From assembly GCF_003854935.1 (NCBI RefSeq), contig NZ_CP033969.1, forward strand, positions 1,302,001-1,366,000: a stretch of 64,000 bases of DNA, read 5' to 3'. The notes beneath the pieces are model-generated. The model saw only the letters and a program-made list of their open reading frames with translations, was not told the DNA's origin and searched no databases. How positions within the stretch are numbered: position 1 is the stretch's first letter; each line of letters begins with the position of its first letter. The translations under genes and the position numbers were made by a program. Positions 56,914-61,266 of the stretch are shown one piece after another. The DNA is from Cupriavidus pauculus (GTDB lineage Bacteria; Pseudomonadota; Gammaproteobacteria; Burkholderiales; Burkholderiaceae).

Positions 56914-58107
56914 ATGCTGAGCTGGGACGACGACGTTCAAGCCACCCCGCAGGCCCAGCCTGCCCTGCAACCCGCCATCCCGCCCGCGCCGGCCGCCACG
57001 GCTGACCAGATGGGCGTGCTGCCGCCAGCCGCCACGGCCCCGGCCGGCATCCTCGGCAACAACCCGAACGCCGCCGCCGCCCAGAGCACGCGCCGCGTGA
57101 ACGCCGCCGACAAGCGCGTGATCAACGGCGCCACCGACGTGAACCAGCTGGTGCCGTTCAAGTACAAGTGGGCGTGGGAAAAGTACCTGGCCGGCTGCGC
57201 CAACCACTGGATGCCGCAGGAAATCAACATGTCGCGCGACATCGCCCTGTGGAAGGACCCGAACGGGCTGACCGAGGACGAGCGCCGCATCATCAAGCGC
57301 AACCTGGGTTTCTTCGTGACGGCCGACTCGCTGGCCGCCAACAACATCGTGCTGGGCACCTACCGCCAGATCACGGCGCCCGAATGCCGCCAGTACCTGC
57401 TGCGCCAGGCGTTCGAGGAAGCCATCCACACGCACGCCTACCAGTACATCGTGGAGTCGCTGGGCCTGAACGAGGCCGAGATCTTCAACGCGTACCACGA
57501 GGTGCAGTCGATCCGCGACAAGGACGAGTTCCTGATCCCGTTCATCGACACCCTGACCGACCCGTCGTTCAAGACCGGCACGCCCGAGAACGACCAGAAG
57601 CTGCTGAAGAGCCTGATCGTCTTTGCCTGCATCATGGAAGGGCTGTTCTTCTACGTCGGCTTCACGCAGATCCTGGCGATGGGCCGCCAGAACAAGATGA
57701 CTGGCGCGGCCGAGCAGTACCAGTACATCCTGCGCGACGAGTCGCTGCACTGCAACTTCGGCATCGACCTGATCAACCAGATCAAGCTGGAAAACCCGCA
57801 CCTGTGGACGGCCGAGTTCAAGGCCGAGATCACCGAGCTGTTCAAGAAGGCCGTGGACCTGGAATACCGCTACGCCGAGGACACCATGCCGCGCGGCGTG
57901 CTGGGCCTGAACGCGCCGATGTTCAAGAGCTACCTGCGGTTCATCTGCAACCGTCGCTGCCAGCAGATCGGCCTGGACCAGCTGTTCCCGAACGAGGAAA
58001 ACCCGTTCCCGTGGATGAGCGAGATGATCGACCTGAAGAAGGAACGCAACTTCTTCGAAACGCGCGTGATCGAGTACCAGACCGGCGGCGCGCTGTCGTG
58101 GGACTGA
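56914..58107 (+). CDS. nrdB: NrdB, class I ribonucleotide reductase small subunit
   Basis: NrdB houses the diiron-tyrosyl radical used by NrdA. The 397-residue protein has a 65-residue Ala/Pro-rich N-terminal extension, then the ferritin-like core. Glu169, His172 and the likely radical Tyr176 lie in [10 protein letters not shown]; further ligands are in GLFFYVGF and DESLHCNFG. The C-terminus [17 protein letters not shown] supplies the NrdA-docking tail. ATG 56914 follows a TTGGAGAA site. A terminator closes the operon. Confidence 0.95.
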
Positions 58108-58205
58108 TCGGTCACCTGATCGAACCACGCGCTACGCGATGGAAGGGTCGGCTGCAGCGTAACAACGACAAGCATTGAACAGTCCAGGGCAGCCGGGACG
58201 GGTGT

Positions 58206-58247
58206 AACGGACATCGGGCGGGGAGCCCGGTGTCCGTTTTTCTTTTT
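58206..58247 (+). terminator. Intrinsic terminator after nrdB
   Basis: ACGGACATCGGGC (58207-58219) pairs with GCCCGGTGTCCGT (58225-58237) with one wobble, followed by TTTTCTTTTT. Confidence 0.9.
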
Positions 58248-58273
58248 GGGGCGGGAATGTGTGGAGGGGGGTT

Positions 58274-58295
58274 AAACCGTGCGTCTGCACGGTTT
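58274..58295 (+). promoter_or_regulatory. hipBA operator copy 1
   Basis: A 22-bp perfect inverted repeat, AAACCGTGC-GTCT-GCACGGTTT. It is followed by T-residues and could double as a weak terminator. First of four copies at 50-bp intervals. Confidence 0.65.
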
Positions 58296-58323
58296 TTTGT
58301 TGAAAAGTGGGTAACCGTCCCAT

Positions 58324-58345
58324 AAACCGTGCAATCAAACGGTTT
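58324..58345 (+). promoter_or_regulatory. hipBA operator copy 2
   Basis: A 22-bp site with arms AAACCGT and ACGGTTT and centre GCAATCAA. It begins exactly 50 bp after copy 1 and shares its first nine bases. Confidence 0.7.
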
Positions 58346-58373
58346 TTATGGTTTTATCGCGCGGAAGCCAATA

Positions 58374-58395
58374 AAACCATGCGATCAACTAGTTT
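58374..58395 (+). promoter_or_regulatory. hipBA operator copy 3
   Basis: A 22-bp site reading AAACCATGC-GATC-AACTAGTTT, again 50 bp on. It overlaps the candidate -35 region. Confidence 0.7.
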
Positions 58396-58418
58396 TTGTC
58401 GTTTCCCGGTGCTATCTT
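58390..58418 (+). promoter_or_regulatory. Candidate hipBA promoter
   Basis: TAGTTT (58390-58395) and TATCTT (58413-58418) are 17 bases apart, lying between operator copies 3 and 4, 41 bases before the antitoxin start. The hexamers are weak matches, consistent with a tightly repressed promoter. Confidence 0.4.
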
Positions 58419-58423
58419 GGTTG

Positions 58424-58445
58424 AAACTAGTAGATCGCACAGTCT
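58424..58445 (-). promoter_or_regulatory. hipBA operator copy 4 (inverted)
   Basis: Read on the minus strand this 22-bp site matches copy 3 at 18 of 22 positions, sharing TGCGATC and ACTAGTTT. It begins 50 bp after copy 3 and ends 13 bp before the antitoxin start codon. Confidence 0.7.
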
Positions 58446-58458
58446 GGCGCACCCCATC

Positions 58459-58803
58459 ATGCAATACACCCTCCAGCAAGCCTCGGACATCGGCGGCGTG
58501 ATTCGCGCCGCGCGCAAGACGGCCAACCTGCGCCAGGACGACGCCGCCGGCGCCGTGGGCGTCAGCGAATCGTTCATGGTCAAGGCCGAGCGGGGCGCGG
58601 AAACCGTCCAGTGGGGCAAGTTGTTCCAGATCCTGCAGGGCTTTGGCGTGCGGGTGACCGTCGACATCCCGGACACCGATCTCGACGCGCTTGCCGAACA
58701 ACTGGCCCGCGCCGAACGCCGGGCCGACGCCCGCCGGCAGCGCGCCCGGACCCGCGACGGCGACCCGCAGGCGCCAGCGTCCTCGACGGGAGAGACCGAA
58801 TGA
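58459..58803 (+). CDS. hipB: HipB-like antitoxin, XRE-type DNA-binding protein
   Basis: This is the likely antitoxin and autorepressor of the downstream HipA-type kinase. The 114-residue protein has a helix-turn-helix over about residues 13-65, with IRAARKTANLRQDDAAGAVG and VSESFMVKAERG as the recognition part, then FGVRVTVDIP and a charged C-terminal tail of about 35 residues. ATG 58459 lies directly after the operator array; an earlier in-frame start would lie within operator copy 4's upstream region. Its stop overlaps the hipA start. Confidence 0.88.
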   Translation: MQYTLQQASDIGGVIRAARKTANLRQDDAAGAVGVSESFMVKAERGAETVQWGKLFQILQGFGVRVTVDIPDTDLDALAEQLARAERRADARRQRARTRDGDPQAPASSTGETE

Positions 58804-60119
58804 CCGGGCGCGAACTGCTGGCATCGATCGACGGCAGCCTCGTCGGCACCCTGCGCGAGGACGGCAATCTCTGGAGTTTCGAGTACGCGCCATGGTGGAT
58901 GGCCGACGCGTCCGCGTTCATGCTGAGCCCCCACCTGCCGATGCAGGCCGGTCCGCAGGCCGACGGCGCCACCGAGCGCGCGGTCCAGTGGTATTTCGAC
59001 AATCTGCTGCCGGAAGAGGGCGCCCGGGCATTGCTGGCCCGCGACGCCGGGCTGCGCGACATCCACGACGCCTTCGCGCTGCTGGAATACTACGGACGCG
59101 AATCGGCGGGATCGCTGACGCTGCGCCGGCCGGACGACGTCGCGCCGCCCGACCACACGCTGCGGCCGCTCACCGACGCCGAACTCGATACGCGCATCCG
59201 CAACCTGCCGACCGTCCCGCTGACGCACGATGCACCCAAGAAGATGTCCCTGGCAGGCGCGCAGCACAAGCTGGCCGTGGTCCTGCGGGACGGCCAGTTG
59301 TTCGAGCCCAGCGGGCAGGCCGTGTCGACCCACATTCTCAAGCCCGACCATCCTCAGACGGACAACTATCCGTATTCGGTGATCAACGAGTGGTTCATCA
59401 TGCGGCTGGCGGGCCGGGTGGGACTGGATGTCCCCCAGGTCGAGCGTCGCTACGTGCCGGCGCCCGTGTACCTGATCCGCCGTTTCGACCGGGCCGTGTC
59501 CAATGGCGTGACGACGCGCCTGCACGCCATCGACGGCTGCCAGCTGCTGAACCTGTCGCCGGCCATGAAGTACTCGGCATGGTCGCTGGCGTCGCTGGCC
59601 CGGCTCGCCAACGCGTGCCGGGCGCCCGCCGCGGCGCGGCTGCGGATCTACCGCTGGCTGCTGTTCTGCATCCTGGTCGGCAATGGCGATTCGCACCTCA
59701 AGAACCTGAGCTTCCTGGTGGATCGCCAGGGCATCTCGCTGGCGCCGCACTACGACCTGTTGTCCGAGAGCGCCTACGAAACCCGTGCCTACAGCCCGCG
59801 CGAGCGCTGGCCGGACCTGGTCGAATTCACCAGCCCCATCGCGGGCGAGCGGCGCTATGCCGGGTTCACGCGCACGTTGCTGGTCGATGCCGGCCAGTCG
59901 CTGGGCCTGACGCGCCCCACGGCCACGCGCCAGGTCGACGACATGCTGCGGATGATCCCGGCGCACGCCGATGCGCTGCTGGCCGAGACCCTGGACGAGA
60001 ACGACCGGCTAGGCGCCGCGCGGCCCGAACTCCGCGCCACGTTTGCGGGTGAAGCGCGGCTGCTGCGCACCATCCGCCATGTGGTCATCGACGAAACCGT
60101 GGCGCGCCTGCTGGCCTGA
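58800..60119 (+). CDS. hipA: HipA-like serine/threonine kinase toxin
   Basis: HipA kinases phosphorylate targets such as glutamyl-tRNA synthetase and cause growth arrest. The 439-residue protein has the N-terminal couple-type domain and the HipA C-terminal kinase core. Ser150 in SLAGAQHKL corresponds by position to the regulatory serine, Lys181 (THILKPD) to the ATP lysine, and Asp297/Asn302 in GNGDSHLKN to the catalytic loop, with Asp319 in HYDLL for metal. All key residues are intact, so an active toxin is expected. The start overlaps hipB (ATGA). Confidence 0.92.
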   Translation: MTGRELLASIDGSLVGTLREDGNLWSFEYAPWWMADASAFMLSPHLPMQAGPQADGATERAVQWYFDNLLPEEGARALLARDAGLRDIHDAFALLEYYGRESAGSLTLRRPDDVAPPDHTLRPLTDAELDTRIRNLPTVPLTHDAPKKMSLAGAQHKLAVVLRDGQLFEPSGQAVSTHILKPDHPQTDNYPYSVINEWFIMRLAGRVGLDVPQVERRYVPAPVYLIRRFDRAVSNGVTTRLHAIDGCQLLNLSPAMKYSAWSLASLARLANACRAPAAARLRIYRWLLFCILVGNGDSHLKNLSFLVDRQGISLAPHYDLLSESAYETRAYSPRERWPDLVEFTSPIAGERRYAGFTRTLLVDAGQSLGLTRPTATRQVDDMLRMIPAHADALLAETLDENDRLGAARPELRATFAGEARLLRTIRHVVIDETVARLLA

Positions 60120-60138: not shown

Positions 60139-61110
60139 TCAATCCGCCGTCGCTCCCGACCGCTTCACCACCGACGCCCACTTGCGGATCTCGCTGTCCA
60201 CGAACTTGCCGGTATCCGCCGGCGTCATCGGCATCGGTTCCGAGCCGCGGTCGGTGATGAACTTGCGCAGCTCCGGCGATTGCAGCGCCTTGACCGTTTC
60301 CGCGTTGAGCTGGCTGACGATGGCGGGCGGCGTGCCGGCCGGGGCCATCATCACGGCCCAGCCCAGGGCCTCGAAGCCCGGTACGCCCTGCTCGCGCACG
60401 GTGGGCACCGCCTGTAACTGCGGCACCCGCTGCGCCGTGGTCACGGCCAGCGGCACGGCCTTGCCGGACTGGATCAGCGGCATGGCGGCCGTCACGGAAT
60501 CCACCATCAGCGGCACCTGGTTGCCCAGGAAATCGGCCTGCGCCGGGCCGCTGCCCTTGTAGGGGATATGGACGATGAAGGTGCCGGTCTGCGCCTTGAG
60601 CATCTCGGCCGACAGGTGTTGCGTGCCGCCGATGCCCGCGCTGGCGTAGCTGTACTTGCCCGGCGCCGCCTTGGCCTTGGCGATCAGGTCGCGCAGCGAG
60701 CCGAAGCCCGACTGCGGCGTGGCCAGGAACACCAGCGGCACCGAGAACACGCCCGAGACCGGCGCGAAATCCTGGCGCGGATCGTAGTTGACCTTCTTGT
60801 AGAGCGTCTGGTTGATCGCCATCGCGCTGCCGGCCATGACCAGCGTGTAGCCGTCGGCGGCCGCCTTGGCGGCGACTTCCATGCCGATGTTGCCGCCGGC
60901 CCCGGCGCGATTCTCGACGACGATCGACTGGCCTAGCTGTTTGCCGAGTTTTTCGGCCAGCGCGCGGGCAAAGATGTCGGTGGCCTGGCCCGGCGGGAAG
61001 GGCACGATCAGCTTGATCGGCCGCTCGGGCCAGGCTGCGTGGGCGGTGCCGGCGGCGGCCAGCAGCAGCGTGGCCAGCGTCAGGCCGGCGTGGGGGCGCA
61101 AGAACTTCAA
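60139..61110 (-). CDS. Bug-family (TctC) periplasmic solute-binding protein
   Basis: This is a tripartite tricarboxylate transporter-type binding protein, a family greatly expanded in Burkholderiales. I favour TTG 61110, which follows a strong GAGGAG site and gives a normal signal peptide ending AHA before [17 protein letters not shown] far-upstream ATG at 61188 would add 26 polar residues. The 323-residue product shows [20 protein letters not shown] and [15 protein letters not shown]. No TctA/TctB membrane genes are nearby, so it is an orphan with unknown ligand. Confidence 0.92.
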
Positions 61111-61266
61111 GGGGGTCTCCTCAACTGTTTGGCGAAATGGCGACGTCTTTGTGCGTGGCGTCGTTCCCTGCGATTCTACGCGCGCCATTTTCAGAATCGG
61201 CTCAAAGACGGTGGGACGCCGAGTCCCTACGATCGACTGCGGACATCAACGAAGGAGAGCATTCCG

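Follow-up and report, generated by a model that had tools for sequence, protein, structure and literature searches.

The window (the whole 64,000-nucleotide stretch of Cupriavidus pauculus DNA that was analysed) carries a HipBA type II toxin-antitoxin pair in the expected gene order: hipB lies directly 5' of hipA and the hipA start overlaps the hipB stop. The first gene, hipB (58459..58803, + strand), encodes a 114-aa XRE-type helix-turn-helix antitoxin/repressor, and hipA (58800..60119, + strand) encodes a 439-aa Ser/Thr kinase toxin. HTH_31 (29.6 bits, cut-off 27), HipA_C (158.9 bits) and Couple_hipA (67.3 bits) all exceed their Pfam cut-offs at this locus, and hipB scores 46.6 bits (E=2.5e-12) against the curated TIGR03070 model, under that model's cut-off of 71.65. 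The closest solved relatives of both proteins are chains of S. oneidensis HipBA, reportedly the subject of Wen et al. 2014: 4pu3_D for HipB (E=2e-5) and 4pu5/4pu3 for HipA (E=8e-31), followed for HipA by the E. coli protein (2wiu, E=4.7e-26). Alignment with the 4pu5/4pu3 chains places MSLAGAQHK opposite LSVAGVQPK and GNGDSHLKN opposite GNADAHGKN, so that both the serine of the Gly-rich loop and the Asp motif, whose Asp is catalytic, are present by alignment. In HipA, Ser150 is described as preceding the Gly-rich loop (available text of PMC10627512).

The 5' neighbour, outside the hipBA system, is nrdB, the ribonucleotide reductase small chain (56914..58107, + strand), which is followed by a terminator-like hairpin with a 14-pair stem and then a T tail (58206..58238, + strand). 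On the other side lies an open reading frame (60139-61188, - strand) for a putative periplasmic binding protein of the TctC/Bug type. Elsewhere in the genome are a second hipBA (G000:C3:98302; L099/L165), with an operator array stepping 27/27/27, and a third hipA-like gene (G000:C3:1590591; L235), at which the called sites, with steps of 81 and 258, do not make up a regular array.

Four related 22-bp sites, all imperfect palindromes, stand 5' of hipB with start-to-start steps of 50/50/50, as the first-pass annotation had read directly from the letters. They are operator 1 (58274..58295, AAACCGTGCGTCTGCACGGTTT), operator 2 (58324..58345, AAACCGTGCAATCAAACGGTTT), operator 3 (58374..58395, AAACCATGCGATCAACTAGTTT) and operator 4 (58424..58445, AAACTAGTAGATCGCACAGTCT), none assigned to a strand, with 9/11, 8/11, 7/11 and 6/11 arm positions pairing, respectively; the last ends 13 bp 5' of the hipB ATG. 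Several palindromic operator-like sites 5' of hipB are what multi-operator HipB autoregulation displays, and the four are probably HipB operators. The earlier description of an AAAC start and a TTT-type end, with the fourth copy inverted, held for the inversion (18/22 positions match when operator 4 is reversed against operator 3) and failed at the end of copy 4, which is TCT. A weight matrix built from the four sites returned the same four as its top hits in the 64 kb, at 27-33 bits with the next at 17.4, and a palindromic-array caller scored the region at 50.1, whereas the best of 1000 dinucleotide shuffles reached 29.8. Run with no spacing prior, the caller recovered the array (locus L044) with its 50/50/50 steps. 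Operators 1 and 2 also pass an intrinsic-terminator scan (9 and 7 pairs, each with a T tail, the second hairpin being the weaker) and might additionally terminate nrdB transcription.

The promoter that had been placed between copies 3 and 4 was not established. A sigma-70 scan of 58090-58480 gave no promoter-like match, and the sole candidate is a weak extended -10, TGC TATCTT (58410..58418, + strand), read by eye and missed by the scan. Among the 51 loci of the same HipB clade (described below) that were scored for a -10, the best sigma-70-like hexamer starts 2-5 bp 5' of the last operator core in 23 and lies elsewhere in 28. At five loci from the genus Cupriavidus (L034, L035, L036, L054 and L071) only a few bases separate the end of the last operator, for example GTCTTTGCAATCAAGGAGAT, from the start codon. 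This operator contains a Shine-Dalgarno-like AGGAG or GGGAG, and its left arm shares bases with a -10-like hexamer, TAAAAT or TAAAGT; a single last operator there could block promoter and ribosome site alike.

The 50-bp step is shared by relatives. We assembled 81 loci of the same HipB clade from genus, family and named-genome searches (the family search matched in 57 genomes, from which 30 loci were taken; the weaker matches L021-L033 were set aside) and collapsed them via identical stretches to 56, among which near-identical ones remain. In a self-match scan over lags of 23-150, the best lag was 49-51 in 40 of the 56, a multiple (98-101 or 148) in 13 and another value in 3, with p<=0.05 in 49/56; control stretches of the same loci had a best lag of 48-52 in 28/220, of which 19 were at 48, a codon multiple. 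The array caller found significant arrays in 52/56 loci and none in the remaining 4/56, and 120/128 steps measured 49-51 bp (25 of 49, 76 of 50 and 19 of 51 bp). Of the eight others, three come from the mis-registered L040, one is a double step (L067) and four lead to a distant extra site (L064, L068, L070 and L085). The hosts are Cupriavidus, Burkholderia, Caballeronia, Pseudomonas, Stappia and others; the named hosts with significant arrays include Burkholderia, Caballeronia, Paraburkholderia and Delftia, together with Pseudomonas, Stutzerimonas and Halopseudomonas of the Gammaproteobacteria and Stappia of the Alphaproteobacteria. Loss of the step in homologous loci had been proposed at the outset as grounds for abandoning the idea, and alignment of hipBA intergenic regions in relatives as the way to look for it; in the event, the repeats and their 49-51-bp step recurred while the letters diverged, and the window array sits within this 50-bp class.

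Two further Cupriavidus genomes (L005 and L006) likewise have hipBA after nrdB, with steps of 51/50/50 and 49/50/49. Compared among these two loci and that of the window, matching operators are 40-85% identical and matching spacers 31-50%. Across the clade loci, the last operator lies anywhere from a few bp to 87 bp from the start codon; small negative values trace to L040 and to L054, where the start was extrapolated. At one locus, L094 (Burkholderia sp. IMCC1007), the hipB frame stops early after about 50 matching residues, no array was called and a single operator-like site is left near the start, possibly a case of the array decaying along with hipB.

Within a locus, identity is 72% between neighbouring operators (120 pairs) and 34.6% between neighbouring spacers (69 pairs), where shuffling the spacers gives 33.4%. 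Since spacers of one locus are as unalike as shuffled ones, recent copying of a 50-bp unit does not account for the pitch. Within the 50-bp class, loci with more distant HipB sequences also have more distant operators (Mantel r=0.70, p=0.0005, n=52), whereas the spacers show no such relation (r=0.04, p=0.16); this is the pattern to be expected of operators that HipB reads. The 27-bp class (n=36) has an r of 0.43 for operators and 0.27 (p=0.0005) for spacers; because spacers there correlate with HipB distance too, the covariation in that class may partly reflect relatedness. A step that is kept while the spacers are unrelated, and operator letters rather than spacers that track HipB, make the 50-bp pitch look like something held by selection.

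We then placed the 50-bp class among the spacings of the phylum. The HipA N-terminal domain had a match in 119/398 genomes, and 130 hipA-linked loci were taken from among the matches listed, a set drawn up without the window's own hipA and some of the listed places. Significant arrays, judged against 20 shuffles per locus, were found in 96/130 of these loci and none in 34/130. Counting only steps of 20-60 bp (n=227), 104 measured 26-28 bp, 18 measured 29-31, 8 measured 32-37, 22 measured 38-41, 10 measured 42-48, 60 measured 49-51 and 3 measured 52-60. The steps from shuffled sequence (n=132) were spread more evenly, with 14, 11, 18, 12, 23, 9 and 31 in the same classes. The clusters at 26-28, 38-41 and 49-51 bp thus lie roughly one helical turn apart. 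The best periodicity was 11.3 bp, with R=0.63 where the null distribution has 0.32 at its 99.9% level, a period that exceeds the 10.5 bp of a helical turn; when HipB clusters of both sets were counted once each, R was 0.76 (68 clusters) and 0.69 (45 clusters). The fit is incomplete: the 29-31-bp steps (18/227) fall between register classes and the 46-47-bp middle steps of 40/46/40-type arrays (5/227) are out of register, so a single strict register does not cover all arrays.

Some arrays stand apart. L183, L188, L191, L216 and L223 are symmetric four-site arrays, from 40/46/40 to 42/46/42, that differ from the other classes (L183 has one further distant site), and L166 has at least eight operators in series at exact 27-bp steps, eight being where the caller stops. 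The caller also gives false positives: it passed 2/30 unrelated control regions (with steps of 53, and of 246 with 27) and 3/15 other TIGR03070-like helix-turn-helix matches in the same genome, where the steps were irregular.

HipB lineage and step class go together. A HipB tree of 112 rows, from which loci lacking a significant array or a class were omitted and in which 28/39 arrays were merged into the 27 class, requires 9 changes of step class, whereas shuffled labels require 48.5 on average; eleven loci (L246-L256) were assigned to the 50-bp class manually, L251 among them despite its call of 50/29/20. With just 69 columns and mostly weak support, the tree is to be read as a clustering and not as an exact history. 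The 38-39-bp arrays L197 and L226 (the latter with one 36-bp step) sit among 50-bp relatives, and the 38-39-bp array L121 and the 28/39-type arrays L141, L146 and L156 sit on the 27-28-bp side. Arrays of 38-39 bp inside both lineages are what a change by one helical turn would yield.

It seems likely, on balance, that the four sites are autoregulatory operators of hipBA and that their pitch is kept because neighbouring complexes make contact at a fixed distance and register. A HipB dimer, probably as HipA-HipB2-HipA, would occupy each palindrome; complexes 50 bp apart would touch one another, most likely via HipA, and in doing so would form a repressed higher-order complex in which the promoter is bent and wrapped, with repression relieved when HipB is degraded. 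Selection would then keep the 50-bp pitch, since such contact would require a set distance and rotational register, and other HipB lineages would use pitches of about 27-28 and 39-40 bp, about whole helical turns from 50. Occupancy, HipA contacts, wrapping, repression and helical register are what we infer from the observed sites, the conserved pitch, the unrelated spacers, the lineage-linked classes and the HipB-operator covariation.

The first-pass annotation had combined a HipB-operator role with the view that an exact 50-bp step sets successive dimers on rotated faces. The role and the step gained support, since 49-51 bp recurs and the operator letters track HipB; the notion of 50 bp as an odd, rotated-face value needs revising. 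With a turn of 10.5 bp, rotations of 240, 257 and 274 degrees follow for steps of 28, 39 and 50 bp, and 50 bp therefore fits better as a member of a spacing family in similar register. With the same helical repeat and the 70-degree bend reported for E. coli, a geometry calculation winds the 50-bp array into a left-handed superhelix, each turn of which takes about 3.4 operators; if the helical repeat is 11.0 bp instead, all three steps come to about 196 degrees and the path is zigzag-like. The wrapped repression complex is a proposal that hinges on the repeat and bend assumed. Whether a helical-register rule governs hipBA spacing throughout the Pseudomonadota, with lineage pitches whole turns apart, contacts in the same register and a left-handed wrap of the promoter, is to us an evenly balanced matter.

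Three other accounts of the sites fare poorly. Instead of operators, the palindromes could be hairpins that act in the RNA as intrinsic terminators or attenuators, and the scan result for copies 1 and 2 favours this; copies 3 and 4 fail the same scan, a stronger terminator-like hairpin already stands 3' of nrdB (58206-58238), termination gives no obvious reason for a constant start-to-start step of 50 bp and the operator letters track HipB sequence, so that we hold this account to be highly improbable, and terminators as the reading of the whole series were rejected on the failure of copies 3 and 4. Slightly less improbable, although still very doubtful on the sequence evidence, is that another regulator binds the sites: their position next to hipBA is partly a matter of construction, arrays having been sought only 5' of hipB or hipA, but the letters covary with HipB and the motif is restricted to this array in the genome. 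With a pattern derived from the four sites and up to 3 mismatches allowed, a search of the 6.18-Mb genome found the four at 0, 0, 1 and 2 mismatches and all remaining matches at 3 (the reversed control pattern gave 1+1 matches); no place outside the hipBA array lay within 2 mismatches, on which ground a trans-acting regulon was rejected as well. Least credible to us is a functionless remnant of the tandem duplication of a 50-bp unit. The 72% identity of neighbouring operators would suit it, but any duplication must be old, given that same-locus spacers are no closer than shuffled ones, and the length has stayed within 1 bp from Alpha- to Gammaproteobacteria while the start-codon distance drifted. 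Tandem duplication as a sufficient origin was rejected because the spacers of a locus are unrelated.

Steric packing is a more serious competitor, one that we regard as possible while inclining against it. In that account each lineage has its own HipA2B2 complex, and the pitch simply reflects the footprint, which is compact in the 27-28-bp lineages and longer in the 50-bp lineages; rotational register is irrelevant. HipB lineage does predict step class, the 29-31- and 46-47-bp steps misfit a strict register, and the structures offer two shapes: in the available text of PMC10627512, E. coli HipBA holds a closely packed HipA pair, whereas the kinases of HipBST are separated by a HipB dimer in a layout called reminiscent of S. 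oneidensis HipBA, to whose chains the window HipB and HipA are nearest. A 49-51-bp step was also found in 11/11 loci that a fragment of S. oneidensis HipA retrieved at 43-47% identity from one gammaproteobacterial family; no near-identical copy turned up in 118 genomes of one family and 369 of its class. On packing alone, however, one would not expect steps to be so scarce at 32-37 and 42-48 bp, or arrays of 38-39 bp to occur within the 50-bp lineages as well as the 27-bp ones.

Several known systems resemble the array in part. E. coli HipB is reported to bind four operators cooperatively, with a 70-degree bend of the operator (available text of PMC3376134; PMC3920265), and dimerization of HipA in operator complexes has been described (available text of PMC7029023). 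The E. coli operators O1-O4 (TATCCN8GGATA) are likewise four palindromes 5' of hipB, but in the one strain that we measured, which carries the published O1O2 sequence, the four TATCCN8GGATA sites step 28/39/28 bp, and this layout is absent from the window array, with its different letters (AAAC..GTTT sites) and 50/50/50 steps. In Legionella HipBST, the accessible text of PMC10653801 describes three evenly spaced operators (O1-O3), a spacing kept in nearly all species and HipB binding by EMSA to 50-bp fragments holding an operator; unlike the window, the system is tripartite, the site is 18 nt long and the inter-operator gaps are 53 bp, which would be a start-to-start step of 71 bp if gaps run edge to edge. 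The Caulobacter hipBA1 and hipBA2 loci resemble the window in having a series of inverted repeats, with three operator sites each (available text of PMC7029023; PMC8545095), at intervals that the authors called consistent with the E. coli higher-order complex (PMC7029023). For S. oneidensis HipBA, a DNA-bound structure exists (available text of PMC10627512). Outside the HipB family, NrdR boxes are also repressor sites with a spacing constraint, a spacer series having shown that whole helical turns are required, but the repressor is unrelated and there are only two boxes. For transcription factors whose spacers vary, in some cases with dependence on phase, the NrdR paper refers to Schumacher 2015 among others (available text of PMC12051234).

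Multi-operator repression of hipBA and even spacing in Legionella HipBST are thus already known from the published texts available to us, and the window array itself would be ordinary hipBA autoregulation; any novelty would lie in the conserved, quantised pitch. The 50-bp class and the turn-wise ladder appear to extend the known multi-operator repression. Our literature search, which covered few subscription papers and is therefore weak evidence of absence, found no description of either, and the register idea for E. coli may already have been stated in Schumacher 2015 or Wen 2014.

HipBA is the founding persistence system, and the operator-bound HipBA assembly has been described as keeping HipA inactive (available text of PMC3920265). 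A pitch that is constant within 1 bp despite drift in the letters would be a sequence-level readout of HipBA assembly in many bacteria, one that takes a structural model beyond the single species it came from and makes of it a testable rule, by which each HipB lineage should have its own allowed spacings. If the rule is true, spacing predicts which HipBA complexes assemble alike, and the arrays offer a simple route to hipBA promoters and HipB specificities in unannotated genomes.
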